In this document: positions 1-64,000 of the stretch, in pieces | Layout of the letters: every line of letters begins with the position of its first letter | Numbering within the stretch: the first letter of the stretch is position 1 | From: an uncultured Atopobiaceae bacterium | Lineage (GTDB): Bacteria > Actinomycetota > Coriobacteriia > Coriobacteriales > Atopobiaceae | DNA: 64,000 nucleotides | Direction: 5' to 3' | Assembly: GCA_944322145.1 (NCBI GenBank) | Contig: CALUNW010000002.1 | Coordinates: 62,001-126,000 of the forward strand | Translations under genes and position numbers: made by a program | Notes under the pieces: model-generated | What the model saw: the letters and a program-made list of their open reading frames with translations, nothing else | What the model was told of the DNA's origin: nothing | Database searches by the model: none

Positions 1-809
1 GCCCCTCCGACGCCGTCGAGATCCTGGGCCTGCAGAGCGTGCCGATGGCCGGCGACGAGTTCCGCGTCTTCCAGGACGACCGCGACGCCCGCGACCTCGC
101 CGACCAGCGCGCCCTCAAGGCCCGCATCGAGGAGCAGAACCGCGTCAAGCACGTCACGCTCGAGAACCTCTTCGACACCATGGCCGACGCCGAGGTCAAG
201 GAGCTCAACCTCATCATCAAGGCCGACGTCCAGGGCTCGATCGAGGCGCTGCAGGACTCCCTCGACAAGATGGACCAGTCCGAGGTGCGCATCAACACGA
301 TCCACTCCGCCGTCGGCGCGATCACCGAGACCGACGTCGTCCTCGCGGACGCCTCCAACGCCATCATCATCGGCTTCGGCGTGCGCCCGGAGGCCAAGGC
401 CCGCGCCGCGGCCGAGCGCGACGGCGTCGAGATCCGCACCTACAGCGTCATCTACAAGGCGATCGAGGACATCGACGCCGCCCGCATCGGCATGCTCAAG
501 CCCACCGAGGTCGAGGTCCAGACGGGCACGGCCGAGGTCCGCGACACCTTCAAGGTGCCCAAGGTCGGCATCGCCGCGGGCTGCATGATCACCGAGGGCG
601 AGATCTCCCGCGACGACCAGGTGCGCCTCGTGCGCGACGGCATCGTCGTCTACGAGGGCAAGATCGCCTCGCTGCGCCGCTACAAGGACGACGTCAAGAG
701 CGTCAAGGCCGGCTTCGAGTGCGGCATCGGCCTGGAGAACTTCCAGGACGTCAAGCCCGGCGACCAGATCGAGGGCTTCCGCATCGACCAGGTCGCGCGC
801 ACGGAGTAG
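1..809 (+). CDS. infB: Translation initiation factor IF-2, C-terminal part (cut by left window edge)
   Basis: C-terminal ~269 residues of IF-2, the GTPase that positions initiator tRNA on the ribosome. The frame is open from base 3, so the start and the G domain lie outside the window. Visible are the end of the linker region, the C1 domain (KELNLIIKADVQGSIEAL) and the C2 beta-barrel that holds fMet-tRNA (VPKVGIAAGCMITEGEISR). The stop is at 807-809. It heads the infB-rbfA-nrnA-truB-ribF cluster, a conserved order in many bacteria. Identification is secure. Confidence 0.96.
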   Translation, partial: PSDAVEILGLQSVPMAGDEFRVFQDDRDARDLADQRALKARIEEQNRVKHVTLENLFDTMADAEVKELNLIIKADVQGSIEALQDSLDKMDQSEVRINTIHSAVGAITETDVVLADASNAIIIGFGVRPEAKARAAAERDGVEIRTYSVIYKAIEDIDAARIGMLKPTEVEVQTGTAEVRDTFKVPKVGIAAGCMITEGEISRDDQVRLVRDGIVVYEGKIASLRRYKDDVKSVKAGFECGIGLENFQDVKPGDQIEGFRIDQVARTE

Positions 810-810
810 T

Positions 811-867
811 CCCAAATAGGGACAGGACACTTTTGGGACATCACGGGGCGGGCCTTGGGCCCGCCCC
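811..867. repeat. REP-like inverted repeat plus GC hairpin between infB and rbfA
   Basis: Two small inverted repeats fill the infB-rbfA gap. The first pairs CCCAAA (811-816) with TTTGGG (832-837) around GGGACAGGACAC, a GGGACA word that recurs in other gaps of this window. The second is a 9-bp hairpin, GGGGCGGGC (845-853) with GCCCGCCCC (859-867), loop CTTGG, without a T-run. It could act as an mRNA processing or stabilising hairpin inside the operon rather than a terminator. Confidence 0.5.
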
Positions 868-888
868 GACCCGCCGGGGGAGCACAGC

Positions 889-1308
889 ATGAAGCAGAAC
901 CAGCACTCCAGAAGGACCAACGAGCTCGCCCGCGAGAAGCTCGCGAGCATCCTTCTCTTCGAGGTCTCCGACCCCGACCTCGCGCTCGTTACCGTCACGG
1001 GCGTGGAGGTCTCGATCGACAAGTCCTACCTGCGCGCCTACGTGAGCTGCGACGCCGACCGCTACGACGAGGTCACCGCCGCCCTGGCGCGCGCCAAGGG
1101 CCGCATCCGCTCGCTTCTGGGACGCTCGCTCAGCTGGCGCGTGACGCCGGAGCTTGACTTCCGCATCGACACCACCACCGACGAGGCGGAACGCATCTCG
1201 CGCGCCCTCGAGGAGGTCCCGCCCACGCTCTCCGTGGAGAAGGACGAGTTCGGCTACCCGGTCGAGCCGGAGGAGCCCGCCGAGCCGGCCGAGAAGGACG
1301 AGGAGTAG
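889..1308 (+). CDS. rbfA: 30S ribosome-binding factor RbfA
   Basis: 139-residue RbfA, a single KH-fold protein needed for late maturation of 16S rRNA and the 30S subunit. It begins MKQNQHSRRTNELAREKLAS and contains the family core (LALVTVTGVEVS, then TPELDFRID about residues 87-95). The last ~30 residues are an acidic Glu/Pro-rich tail (EPEEPAEPAEKDEE), longer than in most homologues. The start is supported by GGGGGAG 8-14 bases upstream. It sits between infB and the DHH phosphoesterase, as usual. Confidence 0.94.
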   Translation: MKQNQHSRRTNELAREKLASILLFEVSDPDLALVTVTGVEVSIDKSYLRAYVSCDADRYDEVTAALARAKGRIRSLLGRSLSWRVTPELDFRIDTTTDEAERISRALEEVPPTLSVEKDEFGYPVEPEEPAEPAEKDEE

Positions 1309-1317
1309 GGGGCGCCC

Positions 1318-2346: not shown

Positions 2347-2348
2347 CC

Positions 2349-3266: not shown

Positions 3267-4537
3267 TGTCCGCACAAAGGGGACGTGTTTTTTCGTGCAG
3301 ACGTTTTGGGACAGGTTTCCCATCGCCGGGAGACGGCGTCGAGAAGGGCCTCGCGCAGCGCCTCCGCGCGCTCTCGCCGGAGCGTCCGCTCTACAGCGAC
3401 GCGGCCCGCGACCTCGTGCGGGACGCTCTCGTGGCCGTCGAGCCCCCCTTGAGGGTATGTACACCCACCCAGGAGGGTATGTACACCCAGCCCCTCGGTT
3501 CTTCTCGCAAATCAGCAGGTCAGAGCCTTGGGCGAGAAGAACCGGCGGATTGCGAAGTGTACACACCCTCCATGCGGGGTGTACACACCCTCGACCAGGC
3601 GCCGCGCCCCCGCGCCGTCTGCGCGATCGGTGCGTTCGACGGCGTGCACCGGGGCCACCGCGCCCTGATCGCGCGGGCGCGGGCCGAGGCGGACGCGCGC
3701 GGCGACGAGCTCATGGTCGTCACGTTCTCGCCCGACCCCTCCGTCGTCCTCGCGCCGCGCCATCCCCAGCGCATGCTGATGCGCGACGAGGACCGCCTGC
3801 GCGCCCTGGGCTCGACCGAGGGCGTCGACCGGCTCGCCGTCATCGACTTCACGCCCGAGCTCGCCGCCCTCCCGTACGACCGCTTCGTGCGCGAGGTCCT
3901 TGACGAGCTCGCCGACCTCGACTGCGTCGTCGTGGGCGCGGACTTCAGGCTCGGGGCCGGCGGCGCGGGCGACGTCGCGGCCCTCGCCGAGCTGGGGCGC
4001 GCCGACGGCTTCGACGTCGTCGGCATGGAGCTCGCGGACGATGGCGGCGCGCCGATCACGGCCACGCGCATCCGCGGCCTGCTCGCCGAGGGCGCCGTCG
4101 AGGAGGCGGCGGGCCTTCTCGGCCGCTGCCACTGCGTGAGCGGCGCGGTCGAGCACGGACGCGGCGAGGGGACGGGCTTTGGCTTCCCCACGGCCAACGT
4201 GCGCGTGGGGGAGGGCGCCGCGCTCCCGGCCGAGGGCGTCTACGCGGGCTACGTCGCCCTGGGGCGCACGGCCTGGCCCGCGGCGATCAACGTGGGCAAG
4301 CCCAGGTCCTTCTCGCCCGGCGAGGAGGGCGCGCCCTTCCTGGAGGCGACGCTGCTGGGCTTTGCGGGCGACCTCTACGACGCGCGCGTGAGCGTCGTCT
4401 TTGTGCGCTGGCTGCGCGCGCCGCGGCGCTTTGGCTCCGTGGAGGAGCTCGAGCGCACGGTGCTCGGCAACGTCGACTGGGTGCGCGGGACGCTGGGCGA
4501 GAAGGACGTCGAGCTCGCAGGGGAGGTGACGGCGTGA
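3266..4537 (+). CDS. ribF: Bifunctional riboflavin kinase / FAD synthetase with repeat-bearing N-terminus
   Basis: RibF makes FMN and FAD from riboflavin. The FAD-synthetase core starts with CAIGAFDGVHRGH (about residue 118 if the ATG at 3266 is used) and the riboflavin-kinase domain with GFGFPTANV (about residue 303). The core is normal, but about 115 residues precede it where homologues usually have 15-25. This extension includes a REP-like stretch (3275-3318), a segment with normal coding bias (3335-3445: GVEKGLAQRLRALSPERP...), and a complete 142-bp repeat element (3451-3592), all without a stop. Initiation at ATG 3266 (overlapping the truB stop) or at ATG 3572 (inside the element, 15 residues before the core) are both possible. 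The next gene, dnaG, overlaps by 4 bases. Confidence 0.88.
   Translation: MSAQRGRVFSCRRFGTGFPSPGDGVEKGLAQRLRALSPERPLYSDAARDLVRDALVAVEPPLRVCTPTQEGMYTQPLGSSRKSAGQSLGREEPADCEVYTPSMRGVHTLDQAPRPRAVCAIGAFDGVHRGHRALIARARAEADARGDELMVVTFSPDPSVVLAPRHPQRMLMRDEDRLRALGSTEGVDRLAVIDFTPELAALPYDRFVREVLDELADLDCVVVGADFRLGAGGAGDVAALAELGRADGFDVVGMELADDGGAPITATRIRGLLAEGAVEEAAGLLGRCHCVSGAVEHGRGEGTGFGFPTANVRVGEGAALPAEGVYAGYVALGRTAWPAAINVGKPRSFSPGEEGAPFLEATLLGFAGDLYDARVSVVFVRWLRAPRRFGSVEELERTVLGNVDWVRGTLGEKDVELAGEVTA
3275..3320. repeat. REP-like GGGACG/GGGACA sequence at the truB-ribF junction
   Basis: Contains GGGGACGTG, a T-run and TTTTGGGACAGG in about 45 bases, immediately after the TGATG overlap of truB and ribF. 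Similar GGGACA/GGGACG words occur at 811-837, about 28163-28176, 43204-43216, 44862-44870 and 51750-51758. Base composition here is clearly less GC-rich than in neighbouring codons. I read it as a degenerate member of a dispersed REP-like family; a boundary cannot be set from one copy. Confidence 0.4.
3451..3592. repeat. 142-bp repeat element, copy 1 (inside the ribF reading frame)
   Basis: Left arms GAGGGTATGTACACCC at 3451 and again at 3473, and right arms GTGTACACACCCTC at 3557 and 3579. Both pairs are spaced exactly 22 bp. Inside is a second inverted pair, GGTTCTTCTCGC (3497-3508) and GCGAGAAGAACC (3532-3543). The same architecture and length recur at 37655-37796 and 58288-58430. In this copy the right arms carry CACACCC instead of CATACCC. 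The arm centre TGTACA is itself a palindrome. Confidence 0.9.
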
Positions 4538-6492
4538 TCTCCGACGAGGACAAGGAGCGGGTCCGCCAGGCGACGGACTTCGTGCAGCTGGTCTCCGAGA
4601 CCGTGGAGCTGCGCCAGCGGGGCCAGGAGTTCTGGGGCTGCTGCCCCTTCCACGGCGAGAAGACCCCGTCGTTCAAGGTGAACCCCGCGACGGGGCTCTG
4701 GCACTGCTTTGGCTGCGGGGAGGGCGGCGACGTCTTCTCCTACGTGCAGCGCCGCGAGAACCTGGAGTTCCCCGACGCGATCCGCTACCTCGCGGACCGC
4801 GCGGGCATCGAGCTCGCGGAGGAGCGCGGGGGGCAGCGCGGCCCCCGGAAGACCCGTCTCATGGAGGCCCTCGGCGAGGCGGAGTCCTACTATCACCTGA
4901 TGCTCATGCGCGGGCGCGGAGAGGGGCCGGACTCCGCGCGCCGCTACCTCTCGGGGCGCGGATTTGGCTCGGACGTGTGCCGTCGCTGGGGCCTGGGCTA
5001 TGCGCCCGGGCACGGCCAGCTGGTGGCCCAGCTGCGCGCCAAGGGATTCTCGGCCGCGGAGCTCGTCTCTGCCGACCTCGCCTACGAGCGCTCCGGGCGG
5101 CTCACCGACCGCTTCTACGACCGCGTGATGTTTCCCATCCACGACGAGATGGGGCGTGCGATCGCCTTCGGCGGGCGCATCCTGGGCGCCAAGCGCGAGG
5201 GCGTCGCCAAGTACGTGAACACGCGCGACACCGCCGCCTTCAACAAGGGCAAGCACCTCTTCGCCTACGACCGCGCCAAGGAGTCGATGGCGGCGACGGG
5301 CGAGGCCATCGTCTGCGAGGGCTACACCGACGTCATCGCCATGCACGAGGCGGGCTTCACCAATACGGTGGCGGCGCTCGGCACGGCCTTCAGGCTCGAC
5401 CACGTGCGCCTCATGGAGCGCCAGCGCGTGAGCAAGATCATCTGCATGTTCGACGGCGACGCCGCGGGCCAGCGCGCCGCCGAGCGCGCGGTGCGCTACA
5501 TCGACAAGACCTCGGCGGCCCTCTTGTGCGTGGTGCTGCCGGACAACCAGGACCCGATGGAGTTTCTCGCCGCGCACGGCGCCCCCGCGCTGCGCCCGAT
5601 CCTCGACTCAGCGCGCCCGCTCATGGACTTCGTCTTCGAGAAGCGCCTGGCGGGTCACGACCTCACCTCGCCGGGCCGGCGCGTGCGCGCGCTCGAGGAC
5701 ATGGCGTCGCTGCTCGCGCCCCTCAAGCGCTCGGTGCTCCTTGACGAGTACGCGACGCGCCTGGCGGACACCCTGGGCATGGACGTGGACGAGACGAAGC
5801 GCGCCATCCGCGAGGCCAAGGTCGTGGAGCCCGACGACGAGCGGCCCGTGCGCCGACCGGCGGCGCAGGGGCAGACGCCGGGCCGGGCCGCCGCGCCCCG
5901 CCGCGATGCGGGGGGCTCGTCCTTCTCGCCCGCGGCCGAGGACGACTTTGCGCCGGTGCCGGACGACTACGTGCCCGCCGAGGCCTACGACGCTCCCGCA
6001 GCCGCGCCCGCGCCGGCCTTGAGGGCGCTCTCGGCCGACGAGCGCATGCAGGTCGCCGCCGAGCGCGAGCTGCTGAGCGCGCTCGCCCAGCGCCCGGACG
6101 CGCTGCGCGCCTACGAGGACCGCATCGCCGGGCTCTCCTGGGCGGACGCCCGCCACGAGGCGATGGCGTGGGCCATGCTCTCCACGCCCGAGGGGTCGAC
6201 CCCTGCCGAGGTCGTCGCCGCGGCGACGACCGTCACCCCCGACGCGCCGGCCATCCTCTCCGGCGGCCGCGTGATGGGGGAGGGCGAGCTCACGGACGCC
6301 GAGAAGCTCGACCTCATCGTGGACAACGCCGAGCTCTGCTCGTGTCGTCGGAGAATCCGGCAGATCCGGGTGGAGCTCTCCGCCTCGGGGACGCCGGACG
6401 ACCGCTCAGAGAGCCTCTTCCAGGAGGCGACGGAGCTCCAGCGCAGGGTCGGCGAGCTCTCGAGGAGAATCTCGTCGGTATCCACCGAGTAG
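4534..6492 (+). CDS. dnaG: DNA primase DnaG
   Basis: 652-residue primase that makes RNA primers at the replication fork. The N-terminal zinc-binding domain is intact ([12 protein letters not shown] near residue 36, [11 protein letters not shown] near 57). The TOPRIM core shows [17 protein letters not shown] (about residue 258) and [11 protein letters not shown] (about 308). A Pro/Ala-rich linker (about 440-505) leads to a C-terminal helicase-interaction region. The GTG at 4534 overlaps the ribF stop (GTGA). It lies directly before rpoD, an arrangement common in Gram-positive bacteria. Confidence 0.96.
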
Positions 6493-14807: not shown

Positions 14808-16901
14808 ATGTGGACTCAGTTTGCCCTTGTCGTTGCCGTGCTGTGCGTGATGCTGTTCGCACCCGGCGCACTTCTCGCAACGTCCCTGCGCCTGCGCCCC
14901 CTTCGGGCGCTCGCCGTCGCGCCCGTCCTCTCGACGCTTGTCTACGTCCTTCTCGCCAACGTCTACGCCGTTGCCGGAGTTCCCGCCTCGGGAGCCACAC
15001 TCTTCATTCCCGCCCTGTTGGCGAGTGTCGTCGCGGCGGGCGCGTCGCTTGCCCTTCGCGCTGGTCGCCGGCGCGCGGGCTCGCACGCCGCCGGCCCCGT
15101 GGCGGTGTCTCCCTGGAGGCGTGACGTCTCCCTTGTACCCTGCGCTCTCTGCCTCGCAGTCGGGCTGGTCGCGATCACCGCGGTGTTCGTGAAGAACCTC
15201 GACGGTCCGGCGTCATATCTGCAGGAGTACGACAACGTGTTCCATCTGGGCGTCGTCCACAACTTCGTCGAATCGGGGTCCTTCTCGTTCTTCAACAACA
15301 CGCTCTACTCCGTTCCCGACCTCTCCTTCACTCCTCCAAGCGAGTTTGAGTCCTCCTTCTACCCGAGCGCCTGGCACTGTCTGGCCGCGATGGCGGTCAC
15401 CCTCACCGACGCGTCCGTCCCGCTCGTCGCCAATGCCCTCAACACCACCATGGCGGGCATCGTCTTCCCCCTCACCCTGCTCGTCCTCGTCGACGGCCTG
15501 TTTCGCGGAGATCGGCGCGTGTGTGCCTGCACGGCGTTGAGCGTGATGGCAGTGGGGGCGTTCCCGTGGGTGTTCCTGCTCTTTGGGCCGCTTCACCCCA
15601 ACCTGATGTCCTACGTCCTGCTGCCCGCCGTCATCTTCTCCTTCTATATGTTTTTCGAGGACGGGCAGCTCGTGGCGGATCGCGTCTGCGCGGGCGCGCT
15701 GTTCGTGATGGGCATGATCACGGTCGCCGCGTCGCAGCCCAATGCCGTCTTCACCGCCGCGGTCTTCCTGGCGCCCTTCGTCGTCTGGCAGGCGTCGCGC
15801 CTCGCGGACCTCTCTGCGCTTCGCCGCCATGCCGTAGCATGGCGCGTGGCCCTCTCTGCGGCTGCCATCGTCATCGTCGCGCTCATCTGGCAGTTCTGCT
15901 TCGGTCTCGACGCGCTCCAGGACACGGTCACCTTTGACATCTGGAAGGCCACCACGAATCCCGCCCAAGCGGTCGTGAACGTCCTCACGCTTGGGCTGAC
16001 CTCCTATACCGCGGCTCAGCCCTTGGTCGCCGCGGCGGTCGCCATTGGCTTTGCGCGCGTTCTCACCACGCGGCGGCTGCGCTGGATGGCGGCGTCCTAC
16101 TGCTTCGCGGCCGTTATCTATGTCGTTGCCGTCTCGAGCGACGGTGACCTCAAGCAGCTGCTCGCGGGCTTTTGGTACGCCGACCCGCCGCGCCTTGCCG
16201 CCACGATCGGCCTCTTTGCCATCCCGCTCGCCGCATTGGGCGTGGCGACGATGTGGGGCTGGGTCTCATCGATCGTCTCGAAAAAGACTGCACACGCCTC
16301 CGACGGACGCCTCGCCCCGTCCGCACGTCTCGGGCTCTTCTCGGCGCTCGCCGCCCTGTGGATGGTCACGGTCTTCTATCCCAGCTATGCGGTGCCCGGG
16401 CGCTACAGCGTCGAGACGGCCTTCGGTCGCGTGCGCTCATCTGCTCGACAGGGAAACGACCAGCAGGCGGTAAACGTCTTCGACGAGGACGAGCGCGAAT
16501 TTGTGGAGGAGGCGCTCTCCCTCATGCCGGAGGACTCGCTCATCATCAACGAGCCCAACGACGGCAGCGCGTTCGCGTATGCGACCATGGACGCCAATCT
16601 GTACTACCGTTACCTCCCCGTGAGCGCGGTCGAGCTCGAGAACGACGAGAGCCGCCTTATCAGGATGAGCCTGGACGAGTATGCCTCGGACTCAGAGGTG
16701 CGGGATGCGGTCGCCTCCACTGGGGCACGTTACGTCCTCGTCCTCGACATGGATGGGGAGAGAACCGATGAACGACGGTTCCTCAGCAGCTATTATCCGG
16801 AGCAGTGGGAGGGCATCAACGAGCTTACGGACGACACCCCGGGCTTCAAGGTCCTTCTCGCCGAGGGCGACATGCGCCTCTACGAGCTGACTGCGCTCTA
16901 G
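14808..16901 (+). CDS. Large polytopic membrane protein of the DUF6541 type
   Basis: 697-residue membrane protein with about 12-14 hydrophobic segments in the first 530 residues and a soluble C-terminal tail (about 545-697, NVFDEDEREFVEEALSLMPEDSLI...). The luminal-loop motif YLQEYDNVFHLGVVHNFVESG and SFYPSAWHCLAAMA resemble actinobacterial DUF6541 proteins and GT-C-like enzymes. An arabinosyl/rhamnosyl-transferase-like role in envelope glycan assembly is plausible, not shown. It follows rmlCD by 30 bases (AGGAGAT before the ATG). Third-position GC is lower than in rmlABCD. Confidence 0.72.
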   Translation: MWTQFALVVAVLCVMLFAPGALLATSLRLRPLRALAVAPVLSTLVYVLLANVYAVAGVPASGATLFIPALLASVVAAGASLALRAGRRRAGSHAAGPVAVSPWRRDVSLVPCALCLAVGLVAITAVFVKNLDGPASYLQEYDNVFHLGVVHNFVESGSFSFFNNTLYSVPDLSFTPPSEFESSFYPSAWHCLAAMAVTLTDASVPLVANALNTTMAGIVFPLTLLVLVDGLFRGDRRVCACTALSVMAVGAFPWVFLLFGPLHPNLMSYVLLPAVIFSFYMFFEDGQLVADRVCAGALFVMGMITVAASQPNAVFTAAVFLAPFVVWQASRLADLSALRRHAVAWRVALSAAAIVIVALIWQFCFGLDALQDTVTFDIWKATTNPAQAVVNVLTLGLTSYTAAQPLVAAAVAIGFARVLTTRRLRWMAASYCFAAVIYVVAVSSDGDLKQLLAGFWYADPPRLAATIGLFAIPLAALGVATMWGWVSSIVSKKTAHASDGRLAPSARLGLFSALAALWMVTVFYPSYAVPGRYSVETAFGRVRSSARQGNDQQAVNVFDEDEREFVEEALSLMPEDSLIINEPNDGSAFAYATMDANLYYRYLPVSAVELENDESRLIRMSLDEYASDSEVRDAVASTGARYVLVLDMDGERTDERRFLSSYYPEQWEGINELTDDTPGFKVLLAEGDMRLYELTAL

Positions 16902-18253: not shown

Positions 18254-19924
18254 ATGGCAAACACCGAGGCTCCCGAGTACGCCATCGAGGTCGACAACGT
18301 CTCGATGATCTTCAACATAGCAAACGAGCAGCTCAACAACCTCAAGGAGTATTTCATCAAGATCATGAGGCACGAGCTGTTCTTCAAGGAGTTCCGCGCC
18401 CTCAACGACGTGAGCTTCAAGGTGAGGCGCGGCGAGGTCGTGGGCCTGGTGGGCACCAACGGCTCCGGCAAGTCCACGATGCTCAAGTGCATCGCGGGCG
18501 TGCTCGAGCCCTCGGAGGGCTCCGTCACCGTGCGCGGCAACATCGCGCCCCTGATCGAGCTGGGCGCCGGCTTTGACGCCGAGCTCACGGCGCGCGAGAA
18601 CATCTACCTCAACGGGGCCCTTCTCGGCTACACCCGCGAGTTCATCGACGAGCATCTCCAGGACATCATCGACTTCGCCGAGCTCGAGAACTTCATGGAC
18701 ATGCCCCTCAAGAACTACTCCTCGGGCATGGTCGCGCGCATCGCCTTCGCCATCGCCACGGTGACCGAGCCCGACGTGCTCATCGTCGACGAGACGCTCT
18801 CCGTGGGCGACGTCTTCTTCCAGCAGAAGTGCGAGGACCGCATCAAGCGCTTCATCGAGTCGGGCAACGTCACGGTGCTCTTCGTGTCGCACTCCATGGC
18901 ACAGGTCGCCCGAATCTGCGAGCGCGTCATCTGGATCGAGAAGGGCGTGCAGCGCATGGACGGCCCCGCCAAGGAGGTCTGCGAGGCCTACCGGGCACAG
19001 TTCGAGCCGGTCCCCGCCCAGGCGGTCGAGAAGGTCACGATCGAGCGCCTCGTCGCAGACACCGCTGACGCGCTGGTCGGGGCGAACGCGCGCACGGGCC
19101 TCATCCCCGAGGCCGCGCCGAGCGGCGCCCCCAACCGCTTCTATCTCGCCTACACCGGCATGCCCCAGGGCATCCCCGGCGTGAGGTACCAGGTCAAGAA
19201 GGCCGGCGCGTACTTCTACGTCACGCTCGACCCGTCCCTGTACCAGGTTGTCTCCCTCAAGGACCAGGAGGGGCGCATCGTGCGCGAGGTCATCGACGAG
19301 GGGACCTATACCGTGGAGATCGACCTCGCCGACCACGCGCGCCATCGCTACGACCTCGCGTGCACCACGTACGAGTTCACCGTCAAACGCTTCGGCCACT
19401 ACGCCGACGTCAACTCCGCGGCGTGGTACTCCGTCTCGGTCGAGCGCGCCTACAACCTGTACTACCTCGACGAGGCCGAGAACAACCTCTTCTTCCCGGA
19501 GAGTCCGATCACCCCGGGAGACGCGGTGTGCCTGATCAGCCGCATGGCGGGCGGCCCGGGCGAGAAGGACGAGGCGCTCGCATGGGCGCGCGAGGCGGGG
19601 ATCGTCGACGGGCTGCCGGGGTTCGACGCAGCAGACACGGTGAGTCGCGAGCAGTACGCCCACATGCTCGCCAACCTCGCGCGCGCGAAGGGGGAGTACG
19701 CAGAGGCCTCGCTCGAGGCGCTCTCCGACATCTCCGACGCCGACGGCATCTCCGACTGGGCCCTCGCCGACGTGGCCTGGGCCGTCGCCAACCGGGTCAT
19801 GGGCCGCGGCGGCTTTGTCAACAGCGCCGGCACGCTCACCCGTGCCGAGGCGGTCGCCCTGGCGGTGAACTACCAGCCCGAGTCGCTCGACGGCCACGAC
19901 CGCGTGGTGAACCCGCGCCCGTAG
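18254..19924 (+). CDS. wzt: Wzt-like polysaccharide ABC exporter ATPase with C-terminal SLH-like repeats
   Basis: 556 residues, about twice the size of a bare TagH/Wzt ATPase. Residues ~1-255 are the nucleotide-binding domain: Walker A GTNGSGKST (about 66-74), signature NYSSGMVAR (about 153), Walker B VLIVDETLSVGD, His switch VLFVSHSM. Residues ~290-415 form an unrecognised beta-rich segment (RFYLAYTGMPQGIPGVRYQV onward). From ~418 to 545 three S-layer-homology-like units follow: ITPGDAVCLISRM, then VSREQYAHMLANLAR (~462), then ISDWALADVAWAVANRVMGR with LTRAEAVALAVNY (~528). Wzt proteins often carry a C-terminal glycan-binding domain that sets cargo specificity, and SLH repeats bind cell-wall glycans, so the repeats may do that job here. 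No signal peptide is present. Confidence 0.9.
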   Translation: MANTEAPEYAIEVDNVSMIFNIANEQLNNLKEYFIKIMRHELFFKEFRALNDVSFKVRRGEVVGLVGTNGSGKSTMLKCIAGVLEPSEGSVTVRGNIAPLIELGAGFDAELTARENIYLNGALLGYTREFIDEHLQDIIDFAELENFMDMPLKNYSSGMVARIAFAIATVTEPDVLIVDETLSVGDVFFQQKCEDRIKRFIESGNVTVLFVSHSMAQVARICERVIWIEKGVQRMDGPAKEVCEAYRAQFEPVPAQAVEKVTIERLVADTADALVGANARTGLIPEAAPSGAPNRFYLAYTGMPQGIPGVRYQVKKAGAYFYVTLDPSLYQVVSLKDQEGRIVREVIDEGTYTVEIDLADHARHRYDLACTTYEFTVKRFGHYADVNSAAWYSVSVERAYNLYYLDEAENNLFFPESPITPGDAVCLISRMAGGPGEKDEALAWAREAGIVDGLPGFDAADTVSREQYAHMLANLARAKGEYAEASLEALSDISDADGISDWALADVAWAVANRVMGRGGFVNSAGTLTRAEAVALAVNYQPESLDGHDRVVNPRP

Positions 19925-28244: not shown

Positions 28245-28925
28245 ATGGCACAGGAGAGGGGACGTTGGCGAGGGCGGCTTGCGGGAAGGTACGGCCTGGC
28301 GTGCGGCATCATGGCGGCGGTGGCGGCCTGCGCGCTTCTCGTGGGCGTGACGCTGCTCGGCGGGCTCGGGGGCACTCCGGTGACGATCGAGCGGGCGCCG
28401 CAGGTTGCCGCCGCCGGGCCCGCGGAGGACGCGGAGCCCGAGGAGAACATCGAGCCAGAAGAGCCGGTCGCGGCCGAGGAGGTGCCGGCCGCGGAGCCCG
28501 CGGCGGTGGTCGTCCACGTGGACGGCGCGGTGGCGGCGCCCGGCGTCTACGTCCTCCCGGAGGGCTCGCGCGCCAACGATGCCGTGACGGCCGCGGGCGG
28601 CCTCGCCGAGGGCGCGGACACCTCGGGGGTCAACCTCGCCGCACCCGTCTCCGACGGCGAGAAGATCCACGTGCCGCTCGAGGGGGAGGCCGGAGCCGCG
28701 GCCTCGGCGGCCTCCGGGGAGGGGGCCGCGGACGGGCCGGTGAACATCAACCTCGCGGGGGTCGAGGAGCTCGACGAGCTGCCGGGCGTCGGGGAGGCCA
28801 CGGCACGCGCCATCGTGGAGGACCGCGAGAAGAACGGGCCCTTCTCGACGCCCGAGGACCTCATGCGCGTCTCGGGAATCGGGGAGAAGAAGTTCGAGCG
28901 CCTCGCGGGGCTCATCTGTGTCTGA
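28245..28925 (+). CDS. comEA: Competence protein ComEA (DNA receptor)
   Basis: 226-residue ComEA, the membrane-anchored receptor that binds incoming DNA during transformation. Layout: a short basic N-terminus, one membrane helix (about residues 18-42), an acidic Ala/Glu/Pro-rich linker (about 55-88), an SLBB domain (VVVHVDGAVAAPGVYVLPEG, about 88-145) and a C-terminal helix-hairpin-helix domain (VNINLAGVEELDELPGVGEA onward) that contacts DNA. The ATG is chosen from the purine-rich GGGAGGTGG before it. It overlaps comEC by 8 bases. Confidence 0.94.
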   Translation: MAQERGRWRGRLAGRYGLACGIMAAVAACALLVGVTLLGGLGGTPVTIERAPQVAAAGPAEDAEPEENIEPEEPVAAEEVPAAEPAAVVVHVDGAVAAPGVYVLPEGSRANDAVTAAGGLAEGADTSGVNLAAPVSDGEKIHVPLEGEAGAAASAASGEGAADGPVNINLAGVEELDELPGVGEATARAIVEDREKNGPFSTPEDLMRVSGIGEKKFERLAGLICV

Positions 28926-31295: not shown

Positions 31296-31565
31296 ATGCC
31301 CAGATGCATACCCATCAAGGAGATCAAGAACACGACTGAGTTCGCGCGGCTCGTCGAGGAGTCGCCCGAGCCCGTCATCGTGACGCGCAACGGCCGCGAG
31401 GCCTTCGCCGCGATGTCGATCGAGCTGCTCGACTCTCTGCGCATGGAGCGCGCCCGCGCCGAGCTCTACCGGCTCATCGAGGAGGCGGAGGAGGCCTCGC
31501 GCGAGGGTAGGGTCATCGACGCCCGCGAGTCGATCAGAAGGACGCGTGAGCGCTATGGCCTGTGA
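31296..31565 (+). CDS. Type II antitoxin, Phd/YefM family
   Basis: 89 residues from ATG 31296, which has AAAGGGGG 6 bases upstream; an ATG at 31239 overlapping the comEC stop would add 19 residues. The fold signature IPIKEIKNTTEFARLVEESP and PVIVTRNGREAFAAMSIELL is that of Phd/YefM antitoxins. The helical C-terminus (ELYRLIEEAEEASREGRVID) is the expected toxin-binding part. It overlaps the toxin gene by 11 bases. Confidence 0.88.
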   Translation: MPRCIPIKEIKNTTEFARLVEESPEPVIVTRNGREAFAAMSIELLDSLRMERARAELYRLIEEAEEASREGRVIDARESIRRTRERYGL

Positions 31566-32841: not shown

Positions 32842-32853
32842 GGCCGGGGTTCT

Positions 32854-32930
32854 TCTCGCCCCGCCGCCCGGCCCGTCTCGCCCCGCCGCCCGGCCCGTCT
32901 CGCCCCGCCGCCCGGCCCGTCTCGCCCCGC
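32854..32930. repeat. 22-bp tandem repeat, 3.5 units
   Basis: Units starting TCTCGCCCCGCCGCCCGGCC at 32854, 32876 and 32898 are identical over 22 bp. A half unit (32920-32930) ends at the border of the inverted repeat at 32929. The first unit begins inside GTTCTTCTCGCC (32849-32860). The array lies entirely after the holA stop. Confidence 0.92.
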
Positions 32931-37604: not shown

Positions 37605-37654
37605 GGGGCGCGCGTCCTTCTCGGCCGGGCCGGCGCCGCCCCGTTCCGCCCCTC

Positions 37655-37796
37655 GAGGGTATGTACACCGCCTCCTGAGGGTATGTACACCGCCCCAACT
37701 TGGGCGCGCCGCGTTTCCGCTGGTAGAAGAGCTGCCGAGAAGAACGGGCTGCTCGGGAGCGTGTACATACCCTCGAAGGGCGGTGTACATACCCTC
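37655..37796. repeat. 142-bp repeat element, copy 2 (dus-hemW gap)
   Basis: GAGGGTATGTACACC at 37655 and 37677 (22 bp apart), and the inverted GGTGTACATACCCTC at 37760-37774 (first base changed) and 37782-37796 (22 bp apart). Total length is 142 bp, as in copy 1. CCGAGAAGAAC (37735-37745) is inside, though without its inverted partner. It lies wholly between genes. Confidence 0.92.
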
Positions 37797-37841
37797 AGAG
37801 GGGGCGACGTACGTGCCCGTTGTCCATGGGAGGAGCCGACG

Positions 37842-39164: not shown

Positions 39165-39193
39165 GTTCTTCTCGCCCATGCGGCGAGAAGAAC
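39165..39193. repeat. Hairpin built from two inverted copies of the GTTCTTCTCGCC motif
   Basis: GTTCTTCTCGCC (39165-39176), loop CATGC, GGCGAGAAGAAC (39182-39193): a perfect 12-bp stem made of nothing but the dispersed motif. A weaker GAGCTTGAGGCTT/AGCCTCAGGCTC pair lies just upstream (about 39111-39156). The rest of the hemW-reductase gap holds no gene. Confidence 0.93.
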
Positions 39194-41289: not shown

Positions 41290-41385
41290 CGCGGAGCTGC
41301 GGGCGGGCCGGGGCGCGGCTCCCGGCCCGCCCGGGCGCCCCGTCTCCCCGCATCGACCGCCCGTCCTTCTCGCCCCTTGCGCGCG

Positions 41386-43230: not shown

Positions 43231-44469
43231 ATGCACGTGGAACCGAAGAAGGACTACTACGAGGTGCTCGAGGTGCCTCGCGACGCGGACGCCAAGACGA
43301 TCAAGCGCGCCTTCCTCAAGAAGGCCCGCACCCTGCACCCCGACGTCAACAAGGCGCCGGACGCCGAGGAGCGCTTCAAGGAGGTCAACGAGGCCTACGC
43401 CGTCCTCTCCGACGACCAGAAGCGCGCCAACTACGACCGCTACGGAGACCCTAACGGCCCCGGCGGCTTTGGCTCCGACTACGTGGACGTCTCCGACATC
43501 TTCGGCGGCGGGGGCTTTGGCTTCGGCGACATCTTCGACTCCTTCTTCGGCGGCGCCGGGCGCGCGGGCGCCCAGGCGCGCACCCGCGGCCGCGACATGG
43601 GCATCCGCCTCACGGTGACCCTCGAGGAGGCGGCCTCCGGCTGCAAGAAGACCGTCGCCTACACGCGCCTCGCCCCCTGCGAGGACTGCGGCGGCACCGG
43701 CGCCGCCGAGGGCGGCAAGATGCACACGTGCGAGCGCTGCCACGGCACGGGCCGCGTGGTCGAGGTCCAGCGCACGATCTTCGGGCAGATGCAGACGCAG
43801 GCGACCTGCCCCGTCTGCCACGGCCAGGGCCAGGTCATCGACCATCCCTGCGAGACCTGCGAGGGGCAGGGGCGCACGCCCTCCCGCGAGAAGGTCGAGG
43901 TCCAGGTGCCCGCGGGCGTCCACTCCGGGCAGACCCTCACCGTCCCCGGTAAGGGCGAGGCCGGCGTGCGGGGCGACTCCTCGGGAGACCTCGTGGTGAG
44001 CATCGAGGTGGCCGACAGCGACCGCTTCGAGCGCCGCGGCGATGACCTGTTCTGCACGGTCCAGGTGGACGCGCTGCAGGCCATCGTGGGCACCACGGTC
44101 ACGATCGACGGCATCATGGAGGGCGAGCGCGTCACGGTGGAGGTCCCCGCGGGCTGCCAGTTCGGCCAGCAGGTCGTCGTCGAGCGCAAGGGCATGCCGC
44201 GCATGGGCATGATCGCCCGCGGCAACCTCGTGGCCGTCGTGCAGGTGGAGACCCCGCGCGACCTCACCAAGAAGCAGCTGCTCGACGTCGCGGCCATCGT
44301 CGCGGAGCGTTCGCTCGACGACGGCCCGACGGGCGATAGGGGCGAGAAGGACGAGAAGGACGCGGGCCCGGAGGCCGAGGGCTTCTCCGCGGCCGCAGAG
44401 AACGCCGCCGAGCACTTTGCCAAGGAGCGCTGGCACGCTCCCAGAAACCCGTTCAGGAGCCGCAAGTGA
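43231..44469 (+). CDS. dnaJ: Chaperone protein DnaJ
   Basis: 412-residue canonical DnaJ: J domain with HPD ([10 protein letters not shown]), Gly/Phe region ([17 protein letters not shown]), four zinc-finger repeats ([32 protein letters not shown]) and the C-terminal substrate-binding domains. The last ~50 residues are charged and unusual. No dnaK, grpE or hspR is adjacent. It overlaps mtaB (GTGA at 44466). The ATG at 43231 has GGAG 7-10 bases upstream. Confidence 0.95.
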
Positions 44470-45818
44470 CGACGCCTGCCGCGCCCGCGGTCGCCCTCGT
44501 CAACCTGGGGTGCCGCGTCAACCGCGTGGAGCTCGACCTCATGGCCTCCGAGCTCGAGCGCGCGGGGGCGCGCCTCTCCGGCGAGCGCGAGGCCGACGCG
44601 ATCGTGGTGAACACCTGCGCCGTCACCGGCGAGGCCGAGGCCAAGGCGCGCAAGGCCGTGCGCCGCGCGGCGTCGCAGCCGGGGGGCCCGCTCGTGGTGG
44701 CCACCGGCTGCGTGGCGAGCCTGTTTGCCGACGAGCTCGCCGCGCTCGCGCCCAACGTCGTGGTGGAGCGCGACAAGGCGCGCGTGGCCGGGCTCGTGAT
44801 CGAGCGCCTGGGCCTGGCTTCCCCCTCGGCGGGCGACGCTGTCGCGCCGAGCATGCCACAGGGGACGGAATCCGGCCCGGAAGCCGGCGATTCTGGCCGC
44901 AGCGGCATGCTCGAGGGCTGCGCCGCCGCGACCCCCACGCCCACCGGCCGCACCCGTCCCGGCATCAAGGTCCAGGACGGCTGCGACAACCGCTGCACCT
45001 ACTGCATCGTCTGGAAGGCGCGCGGGAGGGCGCGCTCGGTCGCCGCCGACGAGGTCCTTCTCGCCGTGCGCCAGGCCCAGGGCCGCGGCGCGCGCGAGGT
45101 CGTGCTCACGGGCATCAACCTGGGCTGCTACCGCGCCGCCGGCCCGGACGGCCGCGAGCTCGGGCTGCCGGGCCTTCTCGACCTCCTGCTCGAGCGCACC
45201 GACGTGGAGCGCATCCGCCTCTCCTCGATCGAGCCGCCCGACGTCACGCCCGAGCTCTGCGCCACGATGGCCGCGGCGGGAGAGCGCGTGGCGCCCTTCC
45301 TCCACGTCTGCCTGCAGTCCGGCTGCGACGAGACGCTGCGCCGCATGGCGCGCGTCTACCGCACCGACCTCTTCCGCCGCGTGGTCGAGACCGCGCGCGA
45401 GCAGGTGCCGGGCATCGCCCTGGGCACGGACCTCATCGTGGGCTTTCCCGGCGAGACGGACGCGGAGTTCGACCAGAGCCTGGCCTTCTGCCGCGAGATG
45501 CGCTTTGCCAAGATGCACGTCTTCCGCTACTCGCGCCGCCCCGGCACCCCCGCCGCGACGATGCCCGACCAGGTCGACCCGCACGTGATGGCCGAGCGCG
45601 GCGCCCGGGCCCGCGCGCTCGCCGACGAGCTGCGTCTCGCGGAGGCGCGCCGCCTGGTGGGCGAGAAGGACCTCGTGGTGGTGCAGTACCCCGGCCGCGG
45701 CGTCACCGGCGGACTCTTCGACGTGACGCTCGACCCGTCGGTGCCGGTGGACTCGCTCGTGCCGGTGCGCCTCGTCGACGTCTCGCCCGACGCCACCCTC
45801 GCCGCCGAGCTCCCCTAG
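44466..45818 (+). CDS. mtaB: tRNA t6A methylthiotransferase MtaB (radical SAM)
   Basis: 450-residue methylthiotransferase. N-terminal MTTase domain Cys residues are in [24 protein letters not shown] and VATGCVASL. The radical-SAM motif is [20 protein letters not shown] (about residue 173), and a C-terminal TRAM-like domain follows. It makes ms2t6A37 in tRNA. The linker between the MTTase and SAM domains contains a 60-bp palindrome-bounded insert (44851-44910) translated in frame as [20 protein letters not shown]. The start overlaps the dnaJ stop. Confidence 0.93.
44851..44910. repeat. 60-bp REP-like palindrome inserted in frame within mtaB
   Basis: GCATGCC (44851-44857) and GGCATGC (44904-44910) bound a 60-bp segment containing CAGGGGACGG and a CCGGC/GCCGG inner hairpin. 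Sixty bases equal 20 codons, so the frame is kept. It lies in the variable linker of MtaB, and the GGGGACGG word matches the REP-like gaps elsewhere. Confidence 0.6.
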
Positions 45819-58287: not shown

Positions 58288-58430
58288 GAGGGTTTGTACA
58301 GTCGCCCTTGAGGGTATGTACACCCCTCCGAGCTGCTCGTTCTTCTCGCCAGCTTATCTACCTGCGCGTTTGCAACCAACCCAAAACCAGCGGGTGTACA
58401 TACCCTAACGGGGCGGTGTACATACCCTCA
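58288..58430. repeat. 143-bp repeat element, copy 3 (upstream of rpsO)
   Basis: Left arms are a degenerate GAGGGTTTGTACA at 58288 and a good GAGGGTATGTACACC at 58310 (22 bp apart). Right arms GGTGTACATACCCT (58393) and GGTGTACATACCCTC (58415) are again 22 bp apart. GTTCTTCTCGCC is inside at 58339-58350. With the rpsO promoter and leader, this accounts for the 356-base gap 58261-58616. Confidence 0.92.
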
Positions 58431-58516
58431 TAAGGGGCCTGCACCCGCCCGCACCCGGCCCGACGCCGCGCGCGTCTCGTGGATTTTCTGCCGAGAAGGA
58501 CCCGCGTCCGAGCTTG

Positions 58517-58905: not shown

Positions 58906-58935
58906 GAGGGGGCGCCCGCGGGTGCCCCCTCTTTT
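58906..58935 (+). terminator. Terminator between rpsO and pnp
   Basis: GAGGGGGC (58906-58913) pairs with GCCCCCTC (58924-58931), with an inner GCCC/GGGT, followed by TTTT (58932-58935). Confidence 0.75.
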
Positions 58936-58942
58936 GGTTTAG

Positions 58943-59008: not shown

Positions 59009-59024
59009 AGATAAGGGAAAAGAT

Positions 59025-61265
<2,241 letters not shown>

Positions 61266-61295
61266 GGCGTAGCACCATTCCTTGACACGCTGTCC

Positions 61296-61335
61296 GGCGG
61301 CCCCGGGCATCCCTTTCCGGATGCCCGGGGCCGCC
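61296..61335 (+). terminator. Strong hairpin after pnp
   Basis: A perfect 17-bp stem (61296-61312 with 61319-61335) with loop CTTTCC, 30 bases after the pnp stop. There is no T-run. It may stabilise the 3' end or terminate with help. Confidence 0.6.
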
Positions 61336-61395
61336 GCCGTCACTCGGTCCGGCCTCTTGCCGGCATCAACACAAATGAGGATTTGAGTTGCGATT

Positions 61396-61419
61396 GGACC
61401 CCAATCCGGATTTGGGTCC
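61396..61419. repeat. 24-bp palindrome, copy 2 (one change)
   Basis: GGACCCCAATCC at the left half, against GGACCCAAATCC in the copy at 39053-39076; the right half is identical. It stands alone between pnp and the RNase J gene. Confidence 0.85.
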
Positions 61420-61446
61420 TGGCTGCGGCGCCGCGCCCGCACTTCT

Positions 61447-61488
61447 CGCCCGCACTCGTGAGTGCGGGCATCGAGTGCGGGCGTTTTT
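61447..61488 (+). terminator. Nested inverted repeat with T-run in the pnp-rnj gap
   Basis: CGCCCGCACTCG (61447-61458) pairs exactly with CGAGTGCGGGCG (61472-61483), followed by TTTTT (61484-61488). A competing palindrome GCCCGCACTC/GAGTGCGGGC (61448-61469) overlaps it. It fits an intrinsic terminator, though about 180 bases after pnp. Confidence 0.6.
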
Positions 61489-61640
61489 GGGTCCGCAGCG
61501 CATCGAGTGCGCGACCCCACCCGGACCCCGACGCCAAGTGCGTGCATCGAGTGCGCGCCGGCCCGCACTGGATGCGACGGGCGAGAAGTGCGGGCGGGCT
61601 CCCGGCGCTTGCCGAGAAGTGCGTGCCCGCCCCGTGCCCT
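61489..61640. repeat. Irregular repeats of GCATCGAGTGCG and GAGAAGTGCG in the pnp-rnj gap
   Basis: GCATCGAGTGCG occurs at about 61468, 61499 and 61543, and CGAGAAGTGCG at about 61582 and 61613. The units are unequally spaced, so this is not a CRISPR. Together with the features just upstream, it fills the 516-base gap 61266-61781. No gene is visible, and the last ~140 bases before RNase J are ordinary sequence with an AT-rich patch (about 61690-61720) that may hold the rnj promoter. Confidence 0.6.
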
Positions 61641-61781
61641 CCGCGCGTCCCGTGAAGCCATCGTGGAACATGCCGGCGGCTCGTTCTTCTCGTTTACAAT
61701 TAACCGGTATGCGAATTGGTGCGGCCCGAACGGCCGTCTCATATAGCCTGACCAAACACGCGCGAAAGGAACCATTCGGGA

Positions 61782-63446
61782 ATGCCAAAGAAGGACATAG
61801 CGCTCAAGATCATCCCCCTCGGGGGCCTTGACGGCATCGGCAAGAACATGACCGCCTTCGAGTACGGGGACGACATGGTCCTCGTCGACGCCGGCCTGAT
61901 GTTCCCCGACGAGGGGCAGCCCGGCATCGACCTCATCCTTCCCGACTACACCTACGTCCTGGAGAACGAGGAGAAGCTCCGCGGCATCATCATCACCCAC
62001 GGCCACGAGGACCACACCGGTGCCCTGCCGTACCTGCTGGCCGACCTCACCCGCAAGGTGCCCATCTACTCGAGCAAGCTCACGCTTGGCTTCATCCAGG
62101 GCAAGCTCGCCGAGCACAACATCCGCTCGCCCAAGTTCCGCGAGGTGAACGACGGCTCCACCATCACGCTGGGCGCCTTCACCATCACGTTCTTCTCGAT
62201 GACGCACTCGATCCCGGCGGCCTTCGGCGTGTTCATGTCCACGCCCGCGGGCACCGTCATGCACACCGGCGACTTCAAGTTCGACCAGACGCCCATCGAC
62301 GGCCAGCGTCCCAACTACCAGGCCATCAACAAGTTCGGCTCCTCGGGGGTGGACCTCCTGCTCTCCGACTCCACCAACGCCACGCGCCCGGGCTTCACGC
62401 CGTCCGAGGCCGCCGTGGGCCGCGACATCCGTCACGTCATCAAGAACGCCCCGGGCCGCGTCTTCGTGGCGGCGTTCTCGAGCCACATCCACCGCCTCCA
62501 GCAGATCTGCGACGCCTCCGTCGCCGTGGGCCGCAAGGTCGTCGTGACGGGGCGCTCCATGGTCACCAACACCAAGGTGGCGCGCGACCTTGGCTATCTC
62601 AAGATCGACGAGGAGAACATCATCGACGCCTATGACGTCGACCGCATCCCGGACGAGAAGATCGTGGTGCTGTGCACCGGCAGCCAGGGCGAGCCGCTCT
62701 CGGCGCTCGCGCGCATGGCCAACGGCGAGCACAAGTCGCTCTCCATCCACGAGACGGACACCGTGATCATCTCGGCCACGCCCATCCCGGGCAATGAGAA
62801 GAGCGTCCAGGCGATCGTCAACTCGCTCTCCAAGGTGGGCTGCGAGATCTACGACAAGAGCAAGGGCCTCGTGCACGTCTCCGGCCACGCGAGCGCCGAG
62901 GAGCTCAAGCTCATGCTCGCCATGGCCAAGCCCCGCTACTTCATGCCCGTCCACGGCGAGGCGCAGCACCTGCGTGCCCACGCCGAGCTCGGCAAGCAGA
63001 TGGGCGTCCCGGCGAGCCACGTCTTCGTGCTCGACAACGGCGACTCGCTCGAGATGGTCAAGCACAAGGTCCGCCGCGGTCGCGCCGTCGAGTCCGGCGT
63101 GGTCTACGTGGACGGCGGCACGGTCACCGAGGCCAACCCCGTGGTCCTGCGCGACCGGCAGAAGCTCGCCCAGGACGGCGTGGTCACCTGCACCGTCATC
63201 ATCTCCAAGCGTCGCGGCTCGGTCGAGGCCGTGGAGGTCACCTCGCGCGGCGTGGCAAGCTCTACCGACGACCTGCTGCTCGGCGAGGCCCAGGAGCTCG
63301 TGCGCGCGCACGTGACCAAGCTCGCGGGGTCGGGGAGCGTCAACATCGACGCGCTGCGCCGCGGCGTGCGCAACGCGCTCTCCAACCAGCTCTGGAACAG
63401 GACGCACACGCGGCCGATGATCATCCCGGTCGTGATGGAGGTCTAG
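61782..63446 (+). CDS. rnj: Ribonuclease J
   Basis: 554-residue RNase J with 5'-3' exonuclease and endonuclease activity. The metallo-beta-lactamase core has THGHEDHTGALPYLLADL (about residue 72), MHTGDFKFDQ and LLLSDSTNA. The beta-CASP part (FSSHIHRLQQICD, TGSQGEPLSALARMANGEH, VHVSGHAS) and the C-terminal domain complete it. Together with pnp upstream it supplies much of the mRNA decay machinery. GAAAGGAA precedes the ATG. Stop at 63444-63446; ftsK follows after 4 bases. Confidence 0.97.
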   Translation: MPKKDIALKIIPLGGLDGIGKNMTAFEYGDDMVLVDAGLMFPDEGQPGIDLILPDYTYVLENEEKLRGIIITHGHEDHTGALPYLLADLTRKVPIYSSKLTLGFIQGKLAEHNIRSPKFREVNDGSTITLGAFTITFFSMTHSIPAAFGVFMSTPAGTVMHTGDFKFDQTPIDGQRPNYQAINKFGSSGVDLLLSDSTNATRPGFTPSEAAVGRDIRHVIKNAPGRVFVAAFSSHIHRLQQICDASVAVGRKVVVTGRSMVTNTKVARDLGYLKIDEENIIDAYDVDRIPDEKIVVLCTGSQGEPLSALARMANGEHKSLSIHETDTVIISATPIPGNEKSVQAIVNSLSKVGCEIYDKSKGLVHVSGHASAEELKLMLAMAKPRYFMPVHGEAQHLRAHAELGKQMGVPASHVFVLDNGDSLEMVKHKVRRGRAVESGVVYVDGGTVTEANPVVLRDRQKLAQDGVVTCTVIISKRRGSVEAVEVTSRGVASSTDDLLLGEAQELVRAHVTKLAGSGSVNIDALRRGVRNALSNQLWNRTHTRPMIIPVVMEV

Positions 63447-63450
63447 GCAC

Positions 63451-64000
63451 ATGCCCGCAAAACGCAGCACAAACGCAGCAAAGGGCCGTGCCTCGGGAAA
63501 GAAGCCGACCCGCGGCCAGGCCAAGCCCGCGGCCTGCGCGCTCGCCCTCGGCACGGCGCAGTCCGACATCCTCGGCGTGGTCCTCGCGGTCGTGGCGGTG
63601 GCGATGCTCGTCTCAGTCGTCGTGCCGTCCTCGGCCGTCGTGACGAGCGCCGTCCATGACTTCCTCGCGCTCTCCTTCGGCGCCGGCGCCCCGCTGGTTC
63701 CGGTGGCCCTGTTCGCCTTCGCGATGACCTTCTTCTTCGACGGCGAGGGCCCGGTCTCCGGGCGCATCGCGGCGGGGATCGCCCTCGTGCTTCTCGCCGT
63801 GCTCGCCATGCTCTCGCTCAACTTCCCCGGCGCCGCCGAGGACCCGGCGCTCGTCCTCGACCCCGCCAGCGCTGAGCAGGCCGGCGGCTACGTGGGCGGC
63901 GCCCTTGCCTTTGCCCTGCTCACCCTGCTCGGAGGCATCGTCGGCAACGTCGTGCTCGTCGGGTGCGTCCTGGCGGGCGTCGTCGTGTGCGGCTTCTCAA
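63451..64000 (+). CDS. ftsK: FtsK/SpoIIIE-type DNA translocase, N-terminal part (cut by right window edge)
   Basis: First 183 codons from ATG 63451. A basic leader (MPAKRSTNAAKGRASGKKPT) is followed by four hydrophobic segments (about 40-60, 72-92, 103-122 and 143-183), the membrane domain expected of FtsK/SpoIIIE. The ATPase and gamma domains would lie beyond the window. The position directly after RNase J is the common actinobacterial and Gram-positive order, which supports the call. GGAGG lies 9-13 bases before the ATG. Confidence 0.8.
   Translation, partial: MPAKRSTNAAKGRASGKKPTRGQAKPAACALALGTAQSDILGVVLAVVAVAMLVSVVVPSSAVVTSAVHDFLALSFGAGAPLVPVALFAFAMTFFFDGEGPVSGRIAAGIALVLLAVLAMLSLNFPGAAEDPALVLDPASAEQAGGYVGGALAFALLTLLGGIVGNVVLVGCVLAGVVVCGFS

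Follow-up and report, generated by a model that had tools for sequence, protein, structure and literature searches.

A dispersed 12-bp word in Atopobiaceae resembles a DNA-uptake sequence

Introduction

Why would a bacterium carry the same short word hundreds of times along its chromosome, on both strands, inside genes as well as between them? The question is raised by a 64,000-nucleotide stretch of an uncultured bacterium (assembly GCA_944322145.1, contig CALUNW010000002.1, forward-strand positions 62,001 to 126,000; G000:C2:62001-126000 in our numbering), hereafter the window, in which the 12-bp word GTYCTTCTCGCC recurs and which also encodes comEA and comEC. We take the host as a member of the Atopobiaceae, order Coriobacteriales (our family f1 being taken as Atopobiaceae and g1 as the window's genus); its LepA protein shares 99% identity with the one from an uncultured Atopobiaceae bacterium and 95% with that of Olsenella sp. 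An285, four of the 80 lepA loci kept being from Coriobacteriia and two of these from Atopobiaceae, and its genome (G000) comprises 2,402,356 bases in 25 contigs. An initial annotation, made from the window alone, proposed an uptake or recombination signal. We put at roughly 77% the probability that GTYCTTCTCGNC is a DNA-uptake sequence, selected through binding by a surface protein of the competence machine, with the resulting import bias keeping the genome filled. An uptake-type signal fits most of the tests applied to these sequences, including an excess beyond codon use, strand symmetry, dialects, the gain and loss of individual sites and a conjugation stretch in which the word is not enriched.

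Results

The window holds 17 exact copies of the word, against a shuffled mean of 0.07 and a shuffled maximum of 1, and the whole 2.40-Mb genome holds 484 (257 forward and 227 reverse), with a single occurrence of the pattern read backwards. The form GTCCTTCTCGCC stands on the forward strand at 4306..4317, 5919..5930, 14946..14957, 16851..16862, 30382..30393 (within comEC), 41363..41374 (intergenic) and 45054..45065, and on the reverse strand at 4496..4507, 19559..19570, 44341..44352, 45660..45671 and 61143..61154. The form GTTCTTCTCGCC lies on the forward strand at 32849..32860, at 39165..39176, where it is the intergenic first arm of an inverted pair completed on the reverse strand at 39182..39193, and at 58339..58350, an intergenic copy within a separate MITE-like element (miniature inverted-repeat transposable element) described below; a further reverse-strand copy lies at 3531..3542. 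This last copy was overlooked by the initial annotation, whose 16 coordinates are all exact. Its count by eye of the 7-base core, 55-60 CTTCTCG and about 60 CGAGAAG, agrees with the 58 forward and 63 reverse copies present, and its estimate of about 20 copies in the non-coding ~8% of the window is close to the 21 core copies in the 10.6% that our own gene calls leave non-coding. Its expectation of 6-7 core copies on both strands was too low: shuffling gives a mean of 14.2 and at most 24, against 121 observed, an excess of about 8.5-fold rather than the 18-fold that the lower figure implied. Elsewhere in the genome, at G000:C1:50220-50299, five exact copies of GTCCTTCTCGCC stand in tandem with a spacing of 14-18 bp.

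Can codon usage account for such numbers? The initial annotation held that it cannot and asked for a codon-preserving test, which we ran on 462 kb of G000 (the window plus 398 kb of further stretches; 348 genes). Genes were called with our own simple codon-model caller, which missed or misplaced some of them; the null models were 30 within-gene shuffles of synonymous codons and, for intergenic DNA, an order-2 Markov chain. GTYCTTCTCG occurs 293 times in this sample, about once per 1.6 kb, with 192 copies inside genes, 99 in intergenic DNA and 2 more spanning gene ends. The density is 0.48 per kb in genes and 1.64 per kb, 3.4 times higher, between them, while the absolute number is higher inside genes. 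The excess remains after the codon-preserving control: 90 sense copies were observed in genes against 12.4 after shuffling, 102 antisense copies against 49.2, and 99 intergenic copies against 0.6 under the Markov model. Glu-Lys codons, to which CGAGAAG had been partly ascribed, do explain part of the excess, about half of the antisense copies surviving the shuffle, and leave the remainder unexplained. Within genes the word is read mostly as Val-Leu-Leu or as x-Glu-Lys-Asp/Asn.

The word's information spans about 12 positions, G-T-Y-C-T-T-C-T-C-G-N-C. In the 462 kb, where the exact 12-mer is present 104 times, each variant of GTYCTTCTCGCC with a single change at position 1 or at one of positions 3-10 is found 0-7 times, and positions 2, 11 and 12 tolerate change. 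This sharp substitution profile points to recognition by a protein. The flanks of intergenic copies are nearly flat, with at most 0.44 bits at any position, which argues against the word being part of a longer repeat; no conserved sequence extends beyond it of the kind expected from a repetitive extragenic palindromic (REP) element or a MITE.

How is the word placed on the chromosome? Chi and the FtsK-orienting polar sequences (KOPS) are likewise dispersed, over-represented short words, and they are polarised with replication. The earlier claim that the two orientations are about equal here, unlike Chi and KOPS, holds: the strands are even genome-wide in G000, and in the complete chromosome of G111, the one chromosome in which replication polarity was tested directly (20 stretches, with 61 forward and 68 reverse copies), no two-arc polarity emerged: the best split into two arcs gives a polarity of 19 of 129, a value matched or exceeded by random placement in 1716 of 2000 trials. 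An apparent strand bias in some genomes was taken for an artefact of output order, in which forward matches come first. Sorted by local GC skew, which marks the strands poorly here, the copies lean 78:51 in G111 and 156:135 in G000. GTYCTTCTCG is present in 19 of the 20 stretches spread along G111, and site density between co-directional, divergent and convergent genes is 2.0, 1.8 and 2.7 per kb, respectively. Inverted pairs, which had been proposed to form hairpins, are in moderate excess: of the 290 pairs of neighbouring copies in G000, 12 stand in inverted orientation no more than 60 bp apart, compared with 5.6 under random placement (at least 12 in 16 of 1000 trials), and 15 convergent pairs lie 60-200 bp apart, compared with 6.1 (never reached in 1000 trials). 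Such pairs nevertheless involve a minority of copies, and 3 of the 12 close pairs resemble a single repeated element.

Single sites turn over. We compared the comEC-lepA region with 13 relatives, in which GTYCTTCTCG density ranges from 0.14 to 0.86 per kb, and after removal of two duplicate rows obtained 81 aligned site comparisons, which share sites and are therefore not independent. The site is conserved in 21 of the 81, close to the roughly 19 that neighbouring 10-mers of those alignments would predict; the intergenic subset has 7 of 14 conserved, a figure without a separate control. We had considered site conservation as a proof of selection, and rejected it, since there is none overall. 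Positions seem to turn over while the population of sites persists, and a bias in transfer is for this reason a better fit than fixed regulatory or chromosomal sites.

The word is distributed unevenly among relatives. In the window's genus, 30 of 31 genomes contain 227-855 exact 12-mers, with no more than 5 copies of the reversed control in each; the exception, G088, has 40, and even there CTTCTCG ranks second among 7-mers in 100 kb and first of 8176 in 500 kb, as it ranks first of 8125 in G111. A motif-blind k-mer survey of 13 family genomes, about 100 kb each with genic and intergenic excess combined, returned CTTCTCG as the top 7-mer in six (G000, G026, G056, G057, G059 and G116) and the shifted form TTCTCGG in G028. 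The core and the full word can part company: in G059 the core is in excess though the 12-mer count (3) is at background, and G020 has 42 exact 12-mers though the core is absent from its top words. Across the family sample of 140 genomes, genus g27 is rich (291-484 copies, 3 of 3 genomes), whereas counts are intermediate in g15 (45-86, 5 genomes), g34 (49-79, 8 genomes), g28 (51 and 93), one g25 genome (144) and g20 (129); single genomes of further genera (G006, G020, G043, G047 and G138) have 29-54, and the remaining family genomes 0-19.

Outside the family the word fades. A scan of the order (272 genomes) found at most 15 copies outside the family except in genus g37 of family f3, and among 396 genomes drawn evenly across the phylum, none of the 346 that lie outside the order exceeds 29 copies, the maximum falling in an 11-Mb genome; GTYCTTCTCG is absent from 21.8 kb of a named Collinsella locus. 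The g37 genomes (G141-G144) carry 44-103 copies in 4 of 4, other sampled f3 genera being near background, and exchange, common ancestry and convergence are alternative explanations. The initial annotation had placed the signal in Coriobacteriia; judged by lepA the lineage is narrower, Atopobiaceae near Olsenella and not the class at large, most other genera of the order being near background.

One clear lineage dialect was found, in genus g16, whose two genomes carry GGKYTTCTCGGCA in 264 and 271 copies (control 3 each); it keeps the TTCTCG core and the G four positions ahead of it. The same dialect is moderately raised in G001 (84), G030 (48) and three members of the window's genus (G092, G105 and G108; 52-53), and G000 has 18 copies. 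When intergenic copies from the motif-rich genera are aligned, TTCTCG is common to all as the core and the G four positions ahead of it to most, with variable bases between. In a tree of Tad pilus proteins from 15 genomes, g1, g28, g34 and g15 form one clade (support 0.98), and g27, g29 and the dialect genus g16 are placed elsewhere among motif-poor genera, which suggests that the trait is either old and lost in some lineages or was gained more than once.

Is the word rarer in foreign DNA? The only one of the 20 G111 stretches without GTYCTTCTCG, L191 (G111:2,030,001-2,050,000), also lacks GYNCTTCTCGNC, of which the other 19 average 11.7 copies and have at least 3; its GC content is normal (0.695) and its control-word count ordinary. 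A relaxase gene lies 2 kb outside it, at 2,027,617, and L191 itself encodes a VirD4-type coupling protein, a TraG-type P-loop protein and a CHAP protein, so that it looks like part of a conjugative element. In its genes CTTCTCG stands at 1.02 times the codon expectation, compared with 1.14 in L174 and 1.33-2.29 in the other 18 stretches, and GYNCTTCTCG at 0.39 times, compared with 1.56-5.77 elsewhere. In G000, a 10-kb relaxase region has 1 GTYCTTCTCG, whereas 45 bins of 10 kb average 6.3. Depletion in mobile or foreign DNA is seen in these two places, L191 of G111 and the relaxase region of G000. The longest G000 gap, 13.7 kb of low GC with three core copies, contains genes that look glycosyltransferase-like and flippase-like, judged by eye from their translations. 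Relaxase PF03432 occurs in 8 of the 31 genus genomes. The phage portal PF04860 and the large terminase PF03354 had no match in any of the 31, other portal and terminase families not having been searched; frequent transformation could cure prophages. L191 also holds a two-component system and a gene of the D-Ala-D-Ala ligase family, which together look like glycopeptide-resistance cargo.

What machine might read such a word? The window encodes ComEA (28311..28925, forward strand; start set by our own gene caller), an SLBB and helix-hairpin-helix DNA-binding protein (TIGR00426, 65.1 bits, cut-off 53.1; PF12836, 77.3 bits; TIGR01259, 100 bits, below its cut-off of 152), and the DNA-internalisation channel ComEC (28918..31242, forward strand; PF03772, 138 bits; TIGR00360, 63.1 bits, cut-off 36.5; TIGR00361, E 2.7e-51 and 174.5 bits, below its cut-off of 190), both candidate uptake parts. 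Both frames are open, as the initial annotation had noted, but they are little proof of uptake, because comEC occurs in 137 of the 140 family genomes regardless of motif richness. DprA was found in 16 of 16 genomes tested. G000 further carries a Tad operon comprising CpaB, CpaE, TadA, TadB, TadC, Flp, two TadE-like proteins and a TadG-like protein; several of these names were assigned from sequence and position, with Pfam scores over cut-off for T2SSE, T2SSF and one TadE. Each of the 15 loci compared, among them motif-poor ones, has homologues of CpaB, CpaE, TadA, TadB and the TadG-like protein, and the small pilins, overlooked by the gene caller in some loci, were recovered by tblastn in the 3 Tad loci checked. 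A T2SSE ATPase is present in 15 of 15 genomes, in G000 within the Tad operon, and further T2SSE ATPases score over cut-off in G000, G028, G087 and G020. The TadG-like protein (L213 4288-6300 in G000), 670 residues without a Pfam match and with a homologue in 15 of 15 Tad loci, is a candidate exposed pilus component. A search for the receptor by charge turned up no basic pseudopilin that stands out among the Tad pseudopilins examined.

Several neighbouring features deserve mention in their own right. A second dispersed element of about 100-180 bp lies in the window at about 3443-3605, 37647-37810 and 58302-58445; it has inverted GAGGGTATGTACACC half-sites at both ends, often paired 22 bp apart, its centre often holds one copy of the word, and it looks like a MITE or REP-like element. 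GGGTATGTACACC occurs 96 times exactly in the genome, and the element is found in 14 of the 31 genus genomes, being abundant in about five. A small open reading frame 3' of comEC (31296-31565) has a weak phd antitoxin match (25.1 bits, cut-off 20.8) and is perhaps not a gene. Positions 39280-41289 encode a long-form bilirubin reductase (NF045599, 1031 bits, cut-off 750), a gut function of interest. In another family genome, G036 (L046-L050), overlapping 10-mers such as GACTGGTAAT and GTAATCAAAC occur 31-32 times in 100 kb, a putative array resembling clustered regularly interspaced short palindromic repeats (CRISPR).

Discussion

How might a genome come to be filled with one word? We propose that the competence machine has a surface protein with a preference for double-stranded DNA carrying GTYCTTCTCGNC, that DNA from kin, being rich in the word, would be imported and recombined more often, and that over generations this import bias would keep the genome filled with copies. 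The selecting step would be DNA uptake itself, the machine a Tad pilus together with ComEA and ComEC, and recognition of the word would fall to a Tad pseudopilin or some other exposed protein, a candidate class rather than a named molecule.

Several observations pull the other way. Motif-poor genomes carry comEC and the Tad locus just as often, so having the machine is in itself no predictor of the word, and the Tad pseudopilins examined have mostly acidic outer parts. G088, with its 40 copies, might have served as a natural knock-out of the uptake genes; we rejected it as such, since no stop interrupts its comEA, its comEC or its Tad genes where tblastn aligned them, the alignments leaving out the first 65 residues of ComEA and 45 of TadB. 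Five of the 13 family genomes in the motif-blind survey (G018, G020, G036, G040 and G052) lack the word among their nine listed top k-mers. Most copies lie outside gene-end inverted pairs, unlike many neisserial copies. When genes are ranked in quintiles by codon usage, the codon-atypical genes of G000 are not depleted in the word, although some depletion is seen in G111. Motif density in G000 also increases with GC (r 0.52), so that low-GC gaps are weaker evidence than L191.

Other causes would predict other patterns. A bias might act at a transfer step other than surface binding, such as packaging by gene transfer agents, loading of vesicles or a nuclease that spares tagged DNA. Genome statistics are blind to which step of gene transfer is biased, but phage-derived agents of the types represented by PF04860 and PF03354 are disfavoured by the lack of matches in the genus, and we hold this class of explanation to be unlikely. 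Just as improbable, or slightly more so, is a Chi-like signal that modulates a nuclease of the RecBCD, AddAB or AdnAB type and owes its enrichment to a role in protecting self DNA and directing repair: the word is short and dispersed, more numerous in absolute terms within genes and not enriched in the conjugative stretch, as such a signal might be, but Chi sites are polarised with replication, whereas here the strands are equal and two-arc polarity is absent (the lean seen by GC skew resting on a poor marker), the density is 3.4 times higher between genes, and another genus carries a dialect.

A site for chromosome organisation of the KOPS, parS, Noc or matS type, or a widespread regulatory site, would account for many copies and a high intergenic density; we consider it very unlikely, given the lack of polarity, the spread over 19 of the 20 G111 stretches, the in-gene copies in both orientations and a conservation between relatives no higher than that of the surroundings. 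Two further explanations have practically no chance of being the main cause. Codon use or amino-acid bias (Glu-Lys, Leu-Leu) contributes, CGAGAAG often being Glu-Lys and shuffling retaining about half of the antisense copies, but as a sole cause it is refuted by the sense and intergenic excesses and by the near absence of one-base variants at positions 1 and 3-10. That a small mobile repeat spread the copies is suggested by the 14 of 100 intergenic copies that lie within 130 bp of a MITE-like half-site; the other 86 are not so placed, flanks are nearly flat, and G085, G090 and G111 have 638, 855 and 256 copies of the word without an exact half-site, which refutes this as the main cause.

If the word is indeed an uptake sequence, little-studied gut commensals would transform naturally and often, and a simple tag could render gut Atopobiaceae genetically tractable. 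The broader question so far has been whether uptake words are a quirk of type IV pili and an outer membrane or a general result of biased transformation; a like-behaving word in a monoderm family equipped with a Tad machine would be a sign of convergent evolution. The literature search, mostly outside subscription journals and without bioRxiv, returned, among the matches listed, no account of Coriobacteriia that transform naturally or carry uptake words, and in PMC12616744 uptake words are said to be known only from two Gram-negative families.

How, then, does the word compare with known systems? It shares with Chi and KOPS the character of a dispersed, over-represented short word and differs from them in having no polarity. 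The DNA uptake sequence (DUS) of Neisseria is a closer likeness, being a short, non-palindromic word found in genes as well as between them. DUS dialects vary around a fixed core (PMC3630211), and DUS is less dense in genomic islands, with one site per roughly 400-1100 bp (PMC7371117); the word described here likewise has a dialect with a shared core and is sparse in the conjugative stretch of G111, and its own density in the 462 kb of G000 is about one site per 1.6 kb. It differs in sequence, in its host, a monoderm member of the Actinomycetota, in having fewer inverted pairs, and in its candidate machine, a Tad pilus here and a type IV pilus there; it is also known here from sequence alone. 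The uptake signal sequence (USS) of the Pasteurellaceae is over-represented genome-wide and has an inner core common to its dialects, according to PMC12616744, and both features recur here, with a different sequence and phylum and probably a different pilus. For Micrococcus luteus, the accessible text of PMC6668835 reports that a Tad locus is required for transformation, an actinobacterial parallel to the machine proposed here, and mentions no uptake word; the M. luteus genome itself was not examined. In most respects that sequence can test, the statistics of the word match those of DUS and USS, whereas lineage and envelope type differ from those systems and the pilus probably does too. On balance, we lean towards the view that natural transformation guided by uptake sequences has arisen independently a third time, here for the first time in a monoderm lineage and with a Tad-type rather than a type IV pilus as the reader, and that genus dialects around TTCTCG may limit gene exchange among gut Atopobiaceae.

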